Positions 8,492 through 64,000 of a stretch of 64,000 nt of DNA are shown in pieces; position 1 is the first letter of the stretch, and the number at the start of each line of letters is the position of its first letter. The position numbers were made by a program, and so were the translations under genes. The notes beneath the pieces are model-generated. The model made no database searches and had not been told where the DNA came from. It saw nothing but the letters and a program-made list of their open reading frames with translations. The DNA lies in contig MKWA01000015.1 of the NCBI GenBank assembly GCA_001899285.1, positions 484,639-548,638 on the forward strand, read 5' to 3'. This DNA is from Rhizobiales bacterium 64-17. Its GTDB lineage: Bacteria; Pseudomonadota; Alphaproteobacteria; Rhizobiales; Xanthobacteraceae.

Positions 8492-8983
8492 ATGTCCGTT
8501 ATGAAAATGGCCGCCGTCACGATGGTGGGTCTGGCGCTGGCTGGCTGCGCCGGAAGCCCGGACGGCAGCACCGGACCCAAGGAAAACACCGGCACACTGC
8601 TCGGCGCCGGCACCGGCGCGCTCGCGGGCGCCGCGATCGGCGCGGGCGGTGGCACGGGGAGTGCGCTCGCGGGTGCGGCAATCGGCGGTCTGCTCGGTGG
8701 CCTGATCGGCAACCGGATCGGCGCGGCGCTCGACGACGAGGACAAGCGGCGCGCTTATGACGCGCAGATGGATGCCCTCGAACGCGGGCCCTCCGGCGCC
8801 CCGGTGGCGTGGAAGAACCCGGATTCCGGCCGTTACGGCTCGATCGTTCCGGGTCCGGCCTATCAGAATGCCGGCCGGAACTGCCGGTCGTTCACCCACA
8901 CGATCTATATCGACGGCCGCCCGGAGACCTCCCGCGGCACCGCCTGCCGCAACGGCGACGGCACCTGGACGCCGCTCGCCTGA
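8492..8983 (+). CDS. Glycine-zipper outer-membrane lipoprotein (17-kDa antigen type)
   Basis: A 163-residue secreted lipoprotein. The signal peptide ends in the lipobox LAGC (Cys at about residue 18). Next is a Gly/Ala-rich double glycine-zipper region, GTGALAGAAIGAGGGTGSALAGAAIGGLLGGLIGNRIG, described here as residues 37-74. A soluble C-terminal domain with RNCRSFTHTIYIDG and a Cys pair follows, as in the rickettsial 17-kDa surface antigen family. It probably sits on the inner face of the outer membrane. The ribosome site GGGGGAG precedes the ATG. It directly follows the FeuPQ-like genes, but no shared operator was seen. Confidence 0.85.
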   Translation: MSVMKMAAVTMVGLALAGCAGSPDGSTGPKENTGTLLGAGTGALAGAAIGAGGGTGSALAGAAIGGLLGGLIGNRIGAALDDEDKRRAYDAQMDALERGPSGAPVAWKNPDSGRYGSIVPGPAYQNAGRNCRSFTHTIYIDGRPETSRGTACRNGDGTWTPLA

Positions 8984-12244: not shown

Positions 12245-14229
12245 TCCCCGAGGCCGGTCATTACGCGCTGGTGCTGGCGCTGGCGCTCGCGCTGTTTCAG
12301 TCGGTAGTGCCGATGGCCGGCGCGCGCTGGCGTGACGCGACATTGATGCAGACCGCGCCGGTGACGGCGCTGGCGCAGTTCGTCTTTGTCGCGCTCTCGT
12401 TCGCGGCGCTCACGGCGAGCTATGTGACGTCCGACTTCTCGGTGGTGAATGTCTACGAGAATTCGCATTCGCTGATGCCGCTGATCTACAAGATGACCAG
12501 CGTGTGGGGAAACCACGAAGGCTCGATGCTGCTGTGGGTACTGATCCTCGCGCTGTTTGGCGCGGCCGTGGCTGTTTTCGGCCGCAACCTGCCGGACGTA
12601 TTGCGCGCAGACGTGCTCGCGGTGCAGTCGTGGATCGCGGTGGCGTTCTATCTGTTCATTCTGCTCACCTCGAATCCGTTTCTGCGCATCGCCGATCCGC
12701 CGTTCGAGGGGCGTGACCTCAATCCGATCCTGCAGGATTTCGGCCTCGCGGTGCATCCGCCGCTGTTGTATCTCGGCTATGTCGGCTTCTCGATCGCATT
12801 CTCGTTCGCGGTCGCGGCGCTGATCGAGGGTCGGATCGATGCTGCCTGGGCGCGCTGGGTGCGGCCGTGGACGCTCGCGGCATGGATGGCGCTGACGCTC
12901 GGCATCGCCATGGGTTCGTACTGGGCCTATTACGAACTGGGATGGGGCGGCTGGTGGTTCTGGGATCCGGTGGAAAATGCCTCGCTGATGCCGTGGCTCG
13001 CCGGCACGGCGTTGCTGCATTCCGCCGTGGTGATGGAGAAGCGCGACGCGCTGAAAGTGTGGACGGTGCTGCTCGCCATCCTCGCCTTCTCGCTGTCGCT
13101 GATCGGCACCTTCCTGGTGCGTTCCGGTGTTCTCACCTCGGTGCATACGTTCGCGAGCGACCCGAGCCGTGGTGTGTTCATCCTCGCCATTCTGACGCTG
13201 TTCATCGGCGGCAGCCTGACGCTGTTCGCGTGGCGCGCGCCGGCGCTGCGGCAGGGCGGAATCTTCGCGCCGATCTCGCGCGAGGGCGCGCTCGTGTTCA
13301 ACAATTTGTTCCTGACCACGGCCTGCGCGACGGTGTTCGTCGGCACACTTTATCCGCTGGCGCTCGAGGCATTGACCGGTGAGAAGATTTCGGTCGGTCC
13401 GCCGTTCTTCAATCTCACCTTCGCGCCGTTGTTCATTCCGATCCTGATCGCCATGCCGATGGGGCCGCTGCTGGCGTGGAAGCGCGGCGATCTCTTTGCC
13501 GTTGCGCAGCGGCTGCTCGCAGCCTGCGGCATCGCGGTGATCGGCGTTGCCGTGACGTTCGCGCTGGCCGGCGTGAAAGCGGTGCTGGCGCCGTTCGGCA
13601 TCGGGCTCGCGCTGTTTGCCATGGCGGGGGCCGTGACCGATATCGTCGAGCGCAGCGCGCTGCGCAGCGTCGGTGTTGGCATTGCCGCGCGGCGCGCGAT
13701 CGGGTTGCCGCGCTCGGCCTGGGGCACGGCGTTCGCGCATTTCGGCATTGGCATGACGCTCTTGGGCGTCGTGTGCGAAACGACCTGGAACAGCGAGCGC
13801 ATCGTCGCGCTGCGTCCCGGTCAGGCGGTCTCCATCGCCGGCTATGATCTCACCTTCGACGGCATGGTGCCGAAGACCGGACCGAACTATCGCGAAGTCG
13901 CCACGCGCTTTGTCGTGCGTCGGGGCGGGGCGCAGGTGGCGGTGCTCGAACCGTCAAAGCGGACCTTCGCGACGCGCAGCATGACCACCACCGAAGCGGC
14001 GCTGATGACGCACGGCGCCAGTCAGCTTTATGTGTCGCTGGGTGATACAAATTCGGACGGATCGATCGCGGTGCGCATCTACGACAAGCCGCTGGTGCTG
14101 CTGATCTGGCTCGGCGCGGTGGTGATGGTGTTCGGCGGCCTGCTGTCGCTGAGCGATCGCCGGTTGCGTGTCGGCGCGCCGCGCCGGCGCAGCAAGCCGG
14201 CGGTCCTGGCACAGCAACCGGCGGAGTGA
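12241..14229 (+). CDS. ccmF: Haem lyase subunit CcmF (CycK)
   Basis: A 662-residue polytopic membrane protein, the usual CcmF length. It shows the tryptophan-rich haem-handling WWD segment [19 protein letters not shown] near residues 233-251, with conserved His residues in flanking periplasmic loops. There is a C-terminal periplasmic domain before the final helix ([19 protein letters not shown]). It attaches haem to the CXXCH motif of apocytochromes together with CcmH and CcmI. A minus-strand open frame of more than 500 codons across the start is a GC-bias shadow. Confidence 0.95.
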
Positions 14230-60265: not shown

Positions 60266-60508
60266 GTTTCCCGCCCGTGGTCACTGTCCTGGTCGAACCG
60301 ACAATAGATGCTTTTGGGGGCATTCGGCGGAAAGTGGCAGTCAAAGGCGCTATCCGAGATGGATCGGGCGTCTCCCTGCGGGACCGCGCCGTCGGCTGTC
60401 GCTGAAGCCCCGGCTATGCCGGGTCTTCACCCTCCGGGCTTCCGTCCCTGACGCGGCGCTTGCGGATTCGTTCGGTGAAACCGACGCCCGCGTGCGCTGC
60501 TGGTGCGC
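60266..60508. other. Divergent gap between the three-gene operon and ardC
   Basis: About 240 bases of GC-rich sequence without a supported gene. It should contain the promoters of both units. No clear -35/-10 pair stood out. Confidence 0.4.
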
Positions 60509-60596
60509 AGGAGGAGAGTGAGAGTGCCGGCCGGGTGGGCCGTGACGGGTTGGAAGCCGCGGGAGAGGCTCGCGGCGCCCGTCGCGGAGACCCGCG
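60509..60596 (+). promoter_or_regulatory. Nested-hairpin leader, copy 1 (before ardC)
   Basis: A purine-rich box (GAGGAGAGTGAGAG) is followed by a hairpin CGGCC-GGCCG (60528-60542). Then come an outer stem GACGGG (60544-60549) with CCCGTC (60578-60583) and an inner 8-bp stem (60556-60563 with 60569-60576) closed by an AGAGG loop. The linker is TTGGAA. After the outer stem comes GCGGAGA and the ATG 6 bases later. The same order occurs in the other copies with different stem sequences that still pair. Confidence 0.75.
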
Positions 60597-61559
60597 ATGT
60601 CGAGAAATGCTTATCGTGCGCGCGCCGGCGAGGACCGGGCGAGCCTCTATGACGAAATCACCGACAAGATCATCGCCGAATTGGAGGCCGGTCGCGTACC
60701 CTGGGTCCAGCCTTGGGGTACGGCTGCCGCAAAGGCGCCCCTCGCAATGCCGCAAAACGCTTCCACTCGGCGGCAATACAGCGGCGTGAACGTCCTGATC
60801 CTCTGGGGGTCTATGATCGAGCACGGCTTCACCGGCCAGAGCTGGCTCACGTTCCGCCAGGCACTCTCGCTCGGCGGCCATGTCCGCAAGGGTGAGCGCG
60901 GCACGACTGTCGTCTATGCCGACCGCTTCATTCCCAATGATGAGAAGAAGCGCGCGGCAGAATCCGGGGAAGAACCGCAGGCGATTCCGTTCCTAAAGCG
61001 CTTTACGGTGTTTAACACCGACCAGTGTGATGCGCTGCCGGACGAGATCGTAACCATCGCGCCGCCGCCACCTCCCGGTGTGATCGAGCCGGAGGTAGAA
61101 GCGCTCATCAAGTCGACCGGCATCGACTTTCGTATCGGAGGCAACCGCGCCTTCTACATTCCATCGGAGGACTACGTGCAGGTGCCGCCGCCTGCCGCGT
61201 ATTTCGAACCCATCAACTGGCACCGCACAGCCCTGCATGAATTGGGCCACGCCAGCGGCCATCGCTCACGCCTCAACCGCGACCTGTCCGGCGCGCACGG
61301 CTCGAAGAAATACGCCTTCGAAGAACTGATCGCTGAGCTGTGCGCGGCGTTCTCCTGCGCGTCGCTCGGCATCGTGCCGACCGTGCGCCATGCCGACTAT
61401 ATCGGCTCGTGGCTCGACGTGTTGCGCGAGGACAATCGCGCGATCGTCCGCGCCGCGTCGCAGGCAAGCAAAGCGGCTGATTGGCTGCTCGGCTTCCGTT
61501 CAGAGCCGCTTGCCAGCGCCTTCGCTGAGATCGCCGTCGGAGATCAGGAGGCCGCGTGA
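60597..61559 (+). CDS. ardC: ArdC-family anti-restriction protein with zincin domain
   Basis: 320 residues. The N-terminal single-stranded-DNA-binding domain (LYDEITDKIIAELEAGRVPWVQPWG, STRRQYSGVNVLILWG) is followed by a metallopeptidase-like domain with HELGH at 214-218, then FEELIAELCAAF with the third metal ligand. Plasmid and ICE ArdC proteins protect incoming single strands from restriction enzymes during conjugation. It stops four bases into the next long open frame. Its presence with a ParB-like protein is typical of mobile elements of this order. Confidence 0.88.
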   Translation: MSRNAYRARAGEDRASLYDEITDKIIAELEAGRVPWVQPWGTAAAKAPLAMPQNASTRRQYSGVNVLILWGSMIEHGFTGQSWLTFRQALSLGGHVRKGERGTTVVYADRFIPNDEKKRAAESGEEPQAIPFLKRFTVFNTDQCDALPDEIVTIAPPPPPGVIEPEVEALIKSTGIDFRIGGNRAFYIPSEDYVQVPPPAAYFEPINWHRTALHELGHASGHRSRLNRDLSGAHGSKKYAFEELIAELCAAFSCASLGIVPTVRHADYIGSWLDVLREDNRAIVRAASQASKAADWLLGFRSEPLASAFAEIAVGDQEAA

Positions 61560-61580
61560 CAGGCGTGGGTTGGGTCGCCA

Positions 61581-61663
61581 GAGAGGGAGAGGGGAGCGGG
61601 TTTTCCCGCGACGGGTTGGAGGTCGAGAGAGAGGCTTTCGGCCGCCCGTCGTGGAGAACTCAC
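61581..61663 (+). promoter_or_regulatory. Nested-hairpin leader, copy 2 (before the parB-like gene)
   Basis: A purine box (GAGAGGGAGAGGGGAG) leads to a hairpin GCGGG-TTTT-CCCGC (61596-61609). The outer stem GACGGG (61610-61615) pairs with CCCGTC (61645-61650). The inner 9-bp stem (61621-61629 with 61635-61643) has an AGAGG loop identical to copy 1. The linker is TTGGA. GTGGAGA follows and the ATG is 6 bases later, as in copy 1. It overlaps no plausible coding sequence, so the longer frame starting at 61556 is rejected. Confidence 0.78.
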
Positions 61664-63775
61664 ATGGCAAAGGCCGTGCAGAAGATCACTCTGTCGCGCT
61701 CGCGTGACATCCCATTCAACAAGCTGGTGCTCAGCCAGTCGAACGTACGCCGCGTCAAGGCCGGCGTGTCGGTCGAGCAACTGGCCGAGAGTATCGCGCA
61801 GCGCACTTTGCTGCAGAGCCTCAACGTCCGCGCCGTCCTTGATGGTGAGGGCAACGAGACCGGCATGTTCGAGGTGCCGGCCGGCGGTCGCCGCTACCGC
61901 GCCCTCGAACTGCTGGTGAAGCAGAAGCGTTTGGCGAAGACGCAGCTCGTTCCCTGCGTCGTCCGCGAAGGGGGTATCGCCGAGGACGACTCGATCGCCG
62001 AGAACGATGAGCGCGTCGGCCTGCATCCGCTCGACCAGTTTCGCGCCTTCCAGACCCTGCGCACTCTCGGCATGAGCGAGGAAGACATCGCCGCGCGGCA
62101 TTTCGTGACCGCGGCGATCGTCAAGCAGCGCCTGCGCCTGGCATCCGTGTCGCCGAAACTGCACGAGGTCTATGCAGAGGACGGCATGACGCTCGAACAA
62201 CTCATGGCCTTTTCCGTGACCGGCGATCACGCGCGACAGGAGCTGGTCTGGGAAAACGTCAGCAAATCTGGCTATGACGAGCCGTACCAGATCCGGCGCA
62301 TGCTCACCGAGGATACGGTGCGTGCGTCGGACAAGCGGGCGCAGTTCGTCGGCGTCGCGGCATATGAAGCCGCCGGCGGAGGTGTTTTGCGCGACCTGTT
62401 CGAGCGCGACGATGGCGGCTGGTGGCAGGACGTGCCGCTGCTCGAGCGTCTCGTCACCGAAAAGCTGAAGGCGGATGCGGAGACCATTGCCGCCGAGGGT
62501 TGGAAATGGATCGAGGTCGCAATCAGCTTTCCCTATGGCCATGACAACGGTTTCCGTCAGCTCGAGGGAACGCCTGCAGACATCACGGCCGAGGAGCAGG
62601 CGATGGTGGAAGCGCTGCAAGCCGAGCACGCGAAGCTCGAGGCCGAGTATCAGGACGCCGACGAGATTCCCGACGAGGTCGACGCCCGCCTCGGCGAGAT
62701 CGAGAAGGCGCTGTCCGCCTTCGACAATCGGCCGCATATCTTCGATGCGGCCGACATCACCCGCGCCGGGGTTTTCGTTAGCATCGACAGCGATGGCAGC
62801 CTGCTGATCGATCGCGGTTTCGTGCGTCCGGACGACGAAGCGCCGGTTGAGGGCGCAGACGCAAATGCCGACCCTTCTGACACGGACGCTGTCGATCCCG
62901 ACGCGTCATCCGTACGGCGGACCGTCATCACGGTTAGCGGCCAGCCTGAGGCCAAGGACGAAGAAGACGACGGCATCAAGCCGTTGCCTGAGCGCCTCGT
63001 GATGGAGTTGACGGCCCATCGCTCGCTCGCGCTGCGTGACGCCGTAGCGACCAATCCCCAGGTCGCGATGACGGCGCTGCTACACAAGCTCTGCCTCGAT
63101 ACCTTCCAGCGTGAGATGCCGAACGGCTGTCTGCAGGTAACAGTTCGGCAGGTCCACTTCTCTGCGCAGGCATCCGACCTGAAGGACTCCCCGCCGGCGA
63201 AAGCCATCGACGAAAGGAATAAGGCCTGGGCGGCGGAGATGCCGAACGACGAAGTTGCACTGTGGGATTGGCTCGCCGCGCTCGACGACGCCAGCCGTTC
63301 GGCGCTGCTGGCGCATTGCGTGTCGTTCGGCGTGAATGCCTTGTTCGAGAAGATTGATCGATACGGCGGCACCGGCGTGTCGGCGCACGGCCTGCGCCAT
63401 CGGATCGATCAGGCCGATCGCCTGGCACGTGCCGTCAATCTCGACATGGCGGAAGCAGGCTGGCGCCCGACAGTCGACAACTATCTTGGTCGCGTCACCA
63501 AGAGCCGCATCCTCGAAGCCGTGCGCGAGGCAAAGGGTGAGGCGTCGGTGCAACTCATCGACCATCTCAAGAAGAACGAGATGGCGAAGGAGGCAGAGCG
63601 GCTGCTCGATGGCATGGGCTGGCTTCCCGAGCCGTTGCGCCTTGCCGAGGTGGCTGCGGCATCAGGCGAACCCAACACCACAGGCGAACCGCTTCCCGAA
63701 TTCCTCGCCGATGACGAGGACGAGGCGGGTGAAACCGGCGAGGACGAACAGCCCCACGCCGTTGCGGCTGAATGA
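61664..63775 (+). CDS. ParB/RepB/Spo0J-type protein, large mobile-element form
   Basis: 703 residues. The N-terminal ParB core has IPFNKLVLSQSNVRRVKAG, SIAQRTLLQSLNVR and PAGGRRYRALELLVKQKR, followed by the helix-turn-helix region MSEEDIAARHFVTAAIVKQRL and LHEVYAEDGMTLEQLMAFSV. The middle and C-terminal parts are long, acidic and specific to large ParB-like proteins of rhizobial plasmids and ICEs; their role is unknown, and there is no ParA gene here. The start at 61664 is chosen because the leader copy 2 supplies GGAGA 8 bases upstream. Confidence 0.85.
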   Translation: MAKAVQKITLSRSRDIPFNKLVLSQSNVRRVKAGVSVEQLAESIAQRTLLQSLNVRAVLDGEGNETGMFEVPAGGRRYRALELLVKQKRLAKTQLVPCVVREGGIAEDDSIAENDERVGLHPLDQFRAFQTLRTLGMSEEDIAARHFVTAAIVKQRLRLASVSPKLHEVYAEDGMTLEQLMAFSVTGDHARQELVWENVSKSGYDEPYQIRRMLTEDTVRASDKRAQFVGVAAYEAAGGGVLRDLFERDDGGWWQDVPLLERLVTEKLKADAETIAAEGWKWIEVAISFPYGHDNGFRQLEGTPADITAEEQAMVEALQAEHAKLEAEYQDADEIPDEVDARLGEIEKALSAFDNRPHIFDAADITRAGVFVSIDSDGSLLIDRGFVRPDDEAPVEGADANADPSDTDAVDPDASSVRRTVITVSGQPEAKDEEDDGIKPLPERLVMELTAHRSLALRDAVATNPQVAMTALLHKLCLDTFQREMPNGCLQVTVRQVHFSAQASDLKDSPPAKAIDERNKAWAAEMPNDEVALWDWLAALDDASRSALLAHCVSFGVNALFEKIDRYGGTGVSAHGLRHRIDQADRLARAVNLDMAEAGWRPTVDNYLGRVTKSRILEAVREAKGEASVQLIDHLKKNEMAKEAERLLDGMGWLPEPLRLAEVAAASGEPNTTGEPLPEFLADDEDEAGETGEDEQPHAVAAE

Positions 63776-63908
63776 CTCCACGAGCGGGGCGGCTCCGGCC
63801 GTCCCGTTTCCTTTCAACAGCGACATTTGTTCGTCAGACCGGCCTGCGCGAACCGATGCCCACGATCAACTCGCTGTTTCTTGGAGTTGGCCCGTTCATG
63901 CGTTGGCG

Positions 63909-63984
63909 CAGGAGAGGGAGAGGCGGGCCGGGACGGATTTGAGCCGCCGTGGATCGAGAGAGCGTCCGGGCGGCTGATCCGTCC
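63909..63984 (+). promoter_or_regulatory. Nested-hairpin leader, copy 3 (right edge)
   Basis: GGAGAGGGAGAGGCGGGCC leads into the outer stem GACGGAT (63932-63938) pairing with ATCCGTC (63977-63983). An inner stem GCCGCC (63943-63948) pairs with GGCGGC (63969-63974), and the loop contains CGAGAGAGCG. Both stems differ in sequence from copies 1 and 2 but stay paired. The gene it should precede lies beyond the window. Confidence 0.7.
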
Positions 63985-64000
63985 CCGCTCTCGCGAGGCT

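Follow-up and report, generated by a model that had tools for sequence, protein, structure and literature searches.

A conserved nested-hairpin RNA leader before anti-restriction and establishment genes of alphaproteobacterial conjugative elements: a candidate element of translational control

Three leaders at the ardC, parB-like and strawberry-notch genes

The window analysed here, a stretch of 64,000 nucleotides from Rhizobiales bacterium 64-17, comes from contig C15 of an assembly of 4.63 Mb, and towards its end three genes are each preceded by a short leader with a nested hairpin. These genes encode the antirestriction protein ArdC (60597..61559, + strand; PF08401 ArdcN and PF18818 MPTase-PolyVal), a ParB-like protein (61664..63775, + strand; PF02195 and TIGR00180 matches, both under the curated cut-offs) and a strawberry-notch helicase (PF13872, PF13871), whose ATG at 64007 (position 12646 of the window locus, L005) lies 7 bases beyond the window end. 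Relaxase, coupling-protein and TrbE-, TrbL- and TrbI-like type IV secretion genes follow downstream of the leaders, so the window probably lies within a conjugative element. An earlier note on this DNA had described the three leaders and their layout, and both the sequence and the computed folds match that description.

All three leaders are read on the + strand. The leader of ardC (60514..60599) scored 87.6 bits with R1, a covariance model made from 17 class I leaders that includes the Shine-Dalgarno (SD) sequence and the ATG. It opens with a purine box (60514-60524, with AGAGNNAGAG at 60515-60524), and its outer stem (GACGGG at 60544-60549, CCCGTC at 60578-60583, extended by CCGU/GCGG) encloses an inner hairpin at 60556-60576 with the stem GCCGCGGG/CTCGCGGC and an AGAGG loop at 60564-60568; GCGGAGA follows, with the SD sequence GGAGA at 60586-60590 and the ATG at 60597. 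The leader of the parB-like gene (61581..61666, 87.7 bits with R1) lies within the ardC-parB gap and repeats this order, with an outer stem of GACGGG (61610-61615) and CCCGTC (61645-61650), an inner hairpin at 61621-61643 (stem GGTCGAGAG/CTTTCGGCC, loop AGAGG at 61630-61634), GTGGAGA with the SD sequence GGAGA at 61653-61657, and the ATG at 61664. The distance from CCCGTC to the ATG is 13 nt in both copies. The strawberry-notch leader (63911..64000, cut by the window end) scored 73.1 bits with the class II model R2. Its purine box at 63911-63922 is followed by nested stems, the outer being GGACGGAT...ATCCGTCC and the inner GCCGCC/GGCGGC, by the loop GAGAGAGC, and by a CGCUCUC segment that is complementary to both box and loop. 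The three copies had been taken for a single motif; copies 1 and 2 do belong together in class I, while copy 3 falls into a related but distinct class II.

Compared with dinucleotide shuffles, the folding z-scores are -2.31, -4.01 and -1.82 for copies 1 to 3, and the three window copies by themselves are modest evidence. With the class I model, 4 sites were found in the window's own genome (E up to 10), and 2 with the class II model. The genome also has a paralogous second element, on contig C24 (locus L006, 8700-12480), which carries the same ardC, parB-like and strawberry-notch leaders, with a DUF2958 gene additionally placed between ardC and parB.

Conservation of the RNA structure across Alphaproteobacteria

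R1 found further copies in related elements, as the earlier note had anticipated for a selected structure: 27 of 385 genomes sampled within the class have them, and so do 34 of 398 sampled within the phylum. These 34 are all listed as the same class or closer, in a sample with an unstated share of genomes from outside the class. A blast search with leader 1 returned 47 plasmid records, whose genera we take to be alphaproteobacterial. The same leader gave no blastn match at E 0.01 against 50,697 phage records, and a phage-borne motif was rejected. High-scoring class I leaders also occur in two bins labelled Acidimicrobiaceae and Salinicola (L111, L126), where the contigs are probably either misbinned alphaproteobacterial sequence or the product of recent transfer.

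Additionally, the ParB-like protein served as anchor for retrieving loci, and the best 80 (of 287) yielded 154 matches above 49 bits, the listing being empty from 17.5 to 49 bits. In 79 of these 80 loci parB has a complete class I leader, the pooled hits there all being on the parB strand, and the 80th (L107) is cut by a contig end. The class I pool comprises 243 full-length copies (221 distinct), after exclusion of three matches cut by a locus end (L047, L022, L107). The ATG ends all 243 of these matches; because R1 itself contains the SD sequence and the ATG, a model of the class I core alone, R3, was built without them to test the tie to the translation start. Among 372 class genomes, R3 gave 59 sites spread over 26 of them; 58 of the sites coincide by coordinates with R1 sites, the new one being in G082, and a single R1 site, in G380, is outside the R3 list, this genome perhaps not being in the R3 sample. 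In all 30 R3 loci inspected, GGAG and a start codon are in reach (29 by script; the last, L176, by eye, where this position reads CCGGAGGTATCCCGATG). The purine box, the nested helix with its AGAG(G) loop and the GGAG SD sequence at a fixed place before the start codon are conserved features at the sequence level.

For the analysis of covariation, exact duplicates were removed, then rows with at least 92% identity, which left 137 leaders; 60 of these with less than 80% identity (alignment A6) were aligned by MAFFT without structure, the rows themselves having been found with R1. Standard pairs fill 94.8% of 827 helix cells in this alignment, compared with 85.7% after shuffling (0 of 500 shuffles as high), two-sided change is seen in 12 of 14 pairs, and sliding the partner by 1-3 columns lowers pairing to 33-50%. 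On a tree of the 137 leaders, the outer helix has 10 compensatory events on the same branch, against 1.2 under a null that keeps the number of changes in each column (maximum 5 in 200 replicates), and the inner helix has 18, against 3.0 (maximum 9); none of the 200 replicates reaches the observed counts. Among 46 class I leaders the mean folding z is -3.4, among 28 of class II it is -2.2, and the mean minimum free energy (MFE) in class I is about -40 kcal/mol. In all 137 class I leaders, and in 52 of the 55 of class II, the sense strand gives the better RNA fold of the two strands. The class I helices hold 301 cells with a G-U combination, compared with 42 with A-C, and together these results favour RNA over a DNA dyad or a template-strand hairpin. 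Altogether, the pairing of the core is kept by compensatory change and the structure lies on the mRNA-sense strand, in agreement with the selected RNA structure proposed from the window. A GTG frame from 61556 does read through leader 2 into parB, but leader lengths are spread evenly over the three frames (49, 48 and 40 of 137), and a coding role of the leader was rejected.

Class II leaders share the box AGAGNNAGAG, the segment GGCCGGGA, the loop GAGAGAGC, CGCUCUC preceding a GAGG or GAAAG stretch, and the ATG. A regular expression recovered them in 61 of 74 strawberry-notch loci; 10 of the 13 negative loci were searched with R2, and 8 of these gave a match above 38 bits. R2 also matched in 36 of 297 genomes of the order. 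The CGCUCUC segment, complementary to the loop as well, can pair with the box (mean probability 0.54), and the two sides of the inner helix are co-adapted, none of 2000 permutations being as good. RNAalifold gave a different fold on the class II alignment (A5, 46 of 55 distinct leaders, near-duplicates and L011 being excluded), the inner part of which is perhaps misaligned; since the alignment is probably off there, R2 was built without base pairs. Class I leaders are also matched by R2 in their 5' part, with scores of 15-20 bits and E-values as low as 3e-4, so the two classes look related.

Genes behind the leaders

Among the 243 pooled class I copies the downstream gene is parB-like in 119, ardC in 85, DUF932-like in 28 and other or broken in 11, a count biased to parB as 80 loci were fetched through it; without this anchor (73 hits, L015-L065) the numbers are 32, 19, 13 and 9. 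The label 'DUF932-like' is our own, given from an N-terminal motif, and Pfam gave no family for the single such protein submitted. Class II matches above 28 bits number 65, partly from the parB-anchored loci and from the loci used to build R2, so that the sample is biased to strawberry notch: 54 precede strawberry notch and 11 precede other genes, namely six ArdB/KlcA-like by sequence, a second ArdC, a DUF3768 gene and three without assignment. The sole ArdB/KlcA-like protein submitted, from L138, was confirmed by PF03230. These ArdB/KlcA-like genes lie just upstream of the strawberry-notch leader (L138 9626-10313, L109, L199, L132, L121, L165). In L198 (2587-4305) three consecutive class II leaders stand within 1.7 kb, before the DUF3768 gene, the second ArdC and strawberry notch.

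The leader also occurs inside operons, an ardC or DUF2958 stop lying no more than 60 nt before the box (median 25) in 46 of the 70 loci that have such a stop within 1.5 kb. The same upstream element is thus shared by ardC, the parB-like gene and strawberry notch in the window element and by DUF932-like, ArdB/KlcA and DUF3768 genes elsewhere, and this gene content supports the suggestion that the leader ties mobile-element genes into one regulon. One such product, ArdC of plasmid R388, is required in the recipient and not in the donor (PMC7213743). On an Indioceanicola plasmid (L007 7045-8960) a dmeF metal-efflux pair sits between ardC and parB, yet the class I leaders of ardC and parB remain strong there, at 98.9 and 86 bits.

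Separate from the leader, a conserved GC-rich palindromic block occupies 60366..60466 (+ strand), upstream of the first leader of the operon. It is 80-91% alike in eight other loci (L066, L067, L006 at 8561-8659, L069, L102, L145, L101, L103) and 76-77% alike in L106 and L034, and its folding is no better than that of shuffles. Other lineages have different words before the purine box, CCCTTCTGCGGGG at about -38 to -25 and CCCCGCAACGCC at about -19 to -6.

Predicted pairing of the Shine-Dalgarno sequence and possible modes of action

In the class I consensus, UUUCCGUGACGGG can pair with CCCGUCGCGGAGA and so carry the outer stem on through the SD sequence GGAGA; in the computed fold UUUCC tends to pair with GGAGA and the helix to run on into the spacer, the mean probability of this continuation being 0.52-0.68 by gene class. 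The predicted stem of copy 2 passes straight through the SD sequence, and that of copy 1 does so with a small internal loop. The mean unpaired probability of the SD sequence is 0.20, compared with 0.37 in 162 other GGAG-ATG open frames of the same loci (P 4e-11 in a test that takes related rows as independent). By computation, then, the SD sequence is mostly base-paired in the predicted ground state and more so than in other open frames, as in a sequestering leader, while the purine box is mostly single-stranded (0.83 unpaired). The ability of the stem to run on through the SD sequence is missed in the earlier description, which placed an optional short hairpin before the outer stem. As an RNA fold that hairpin is seldom preferred, C27 of the outer stem pairing upstream with a probability of 0.01-0.04 depending on gene class; its segment tends instead to lengthen the outer stem over GGAGA, and the two folds compete. 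As the SD sequence is nearly invariant, covariation cannot prove its pairing. Extension positions 2, 4, 6 and 7 exceed shuffles and positions 5 and 8 do not, so that three of the five beyond the SD sequence do, and permutation shows co-adaptation of upstream segment and spacer for parB (1 of 2000) and DUF932-like genes (50 of 2000). In the single copies L061, L032, L035 and L036, CCC faces GGG. Two of these (L035 1945-2029, L036 1971-2055) are divergent class I leaders before a small protein beginning MHDRDYSAD, where the SD GGGAGA faces CCC and the SD helix is altered on both sides.

We consider it probable, from sequence comparison and folding models, that the leader acts in cis on the mRNA and controls translation of establishment and anti-restriction genes in alphaproteobacterial conjugative elements. 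A trans-acting factor would read the single-stranded box and the AGAG loop and shift the leader between a closed and an open state, locking or opening the SD sequence, and this shared control would tie the genes into one translational regulon. By analogy with the establishment regulons of PMC8708921, the likeliest use, and a plausible one, would be transient expression: a naive recipient would make ArdC, ArdB and helicase in a burst until a repressor encoded by the element accumulates. A more ambitious version, which we hold only tentatively, makes the two-class family a translational master switch of conjugative elements across Alphaproteobacteria, in which an RNA-binding repressor encoded by the element would keep the fold that hides the SD sequence locked in cells where the element is established; a new recipient would lack this repressor, and anti-restriction proteins would there undergo zygotic induction at translation. 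The ParB-like protein is one guess only for the trans-acting factor.

Several results weigh against control through the SD sequence or against the structure on which it would depend. No trans-acting factor was found; among 54 leader genomes a ParB-like gene is present in 48 and ArdC in 34 (E 1e-20). Covariation, for all that compensatory changes exceed the tree-based null in both class I helices, is marginal in a single-pair test over 3403 pairs, with the best pair at E 0.02 or 0.067 and the next at 1.03 or 0.45, depending on the null, though 6 of the top 7 are predicted helix pairs; moreover, rows found with structure-aware models are biased towards pairing. Three of the four SD positions of the extension (0, 1 and 3) do not exceed shuffles, the swap test is weak for ardC (200 of 2000), and the native combination beats the median swap in 38% of ardC, 59% of parB and 63% of DUF932-like rows. 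When copy 1 is folded with DNA parameters, the short hairpin is preferred, along with a local SD hairpin. In class II the outer helix is without co-adaptation (1967 of 2000), and RNAalifold shows no two-sided change.

The leader could instead be an unregulated translation module, in which the hairpin stabilises the mRNA or insulates cistrons while the purine box serves as a ribosome standby site, where the 30S subunit can load even though the SD sequence is structured, with neither switch nor factor. The start codon that every pooled copy brings with it, the filling of gaps inside operons and the predicted single-stranded box all agree with this, but it leaves unexplained the conserved AGAG loop (GAGAGG or GAGAGU in 103 of 137), SD pairing above that of other open frames, and the restriction of the leader to a particular functional gene set, and we regard it as unlikely. 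Action of a small RNA, or of a metabolite as in a riboswitch, on this box and loop is a decidedly improbable explanation. The purine box and the loop are both conserved and single-stranded, and a pyrimidine-rich RNA could pair with them, but no candidate RNA is known here and none was searched for, and the unrelated gene functions do not suggest a metabolite. CsrA control was rejected, no CsrA gene having been found in the own genome (PF02599, 0 matches; the control matches in 3 of 14).

Readings at the DNA level were rejected on the wobble asymmetry. We give very little credence to a promoter of the Frpo type, a hairpin in the entering T-strand at which RNA polymerase would start, even though the antirestriction content fits leading-region genes (PMC11541004) and sense-strand folds with DNA parameters beat shuffles in both copies run (z -3.0 and -2.8). 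No sigma-70-like site was found at L005 8700-12700 by a scan that knows the consensus only, the stem abuts the SD sequence and leaves almost no 5' untranslated region, the G-U excess places the pairing on the mRNA-sense and not the template strand, and as antisense DNA copy 1 loses its outer and copy 2 its inner stem. Imperfect dyads are present and would suit an inverted repeat in double-stranded DNA bound by a transcription regulator, but wobble asymmetry and strand bias, compensatory changes across the 8-pair inner helix and the fixed position to the start codon, inside operons too, make such an operator the least credible of the readings weighed. A Rho-independent terminator was likewise discarded, as there is no + strand terminator-like site at L005 8700-12700.

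The leader is perhaps an undescribed way of switching anti-restriction and establishment genes together at translation. The timing of anti-defence genes in conjugative elements is known for a few plasmids and, in the sources consulted, through promoters. As a sequence tag for such genes across Alphaproteobacteria, the leader makes the genes of undefined role behind it candidate establishment or anti-defence genes, and it allows a direct reporter test of post-transcriptional zygotic induction.

Comparison with known systems

The earlier note had pointed to Rfam for a possible published counterpart, and neither the 64-kb window nor 20 loci taken from both classes contain a match to any Rfam 15 family at the gathering cut-off; under permissive settings, 60400-64000 gave only two hits (E 2.4-2.7), on the minus strand and outside the leaders. 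Weinberg 2017 reportedly describes 224 candidate RNAs, a motif set compared here only through Rfam. The literature searched, composed of listings and opening abstracts with most subscription papers beyond its scope, holds no description of the leader, and term look-ups in PMC11109978 and PMC8632094 returned zero hits. The leader would work like an SD-sequestering translational leader and, as a family, is new to the resources searched.

In SD-sequestering leaders such as riboswitches and ROSE thermometers the ribosome-binding site is hidden in a helix, as is predicted here, whereas the present leader has no Rfam match, a strongly negative class I MFE and an unrelated gene set. Leaders controlled by CsrA/RsmA carry a purine-rich loop and the SD sequence in a leader hairpin; the present leader resembles them in both, but its loop is usually AGAGG or AGAGU, often without GGA. 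The Frpo/ssi single-strand promoters (PMC11541004) are likewise hairpins before leading-region anti-defence genes, with -35 and -10 elements in the DNA hairpin, whereas none were found in the leader and its structure is kept on the RNA-sense strand. A parallel in organisation comes from EGeRS1 and EGeRS2 of the pLS20 family (PMC8708921), a type of sequence repeated upstream of ardC and further establishment operons of a single conjugative element, which it marks out as a regulon. On these Bacillus plasmids, however, the EGeRS1 regions span 420-750 bp, and the p576 type uses a protein-controlled promoter (same source), whereas the leader described here measures 80-90 nt, overlaps the SD sequence and also stands inside operons.

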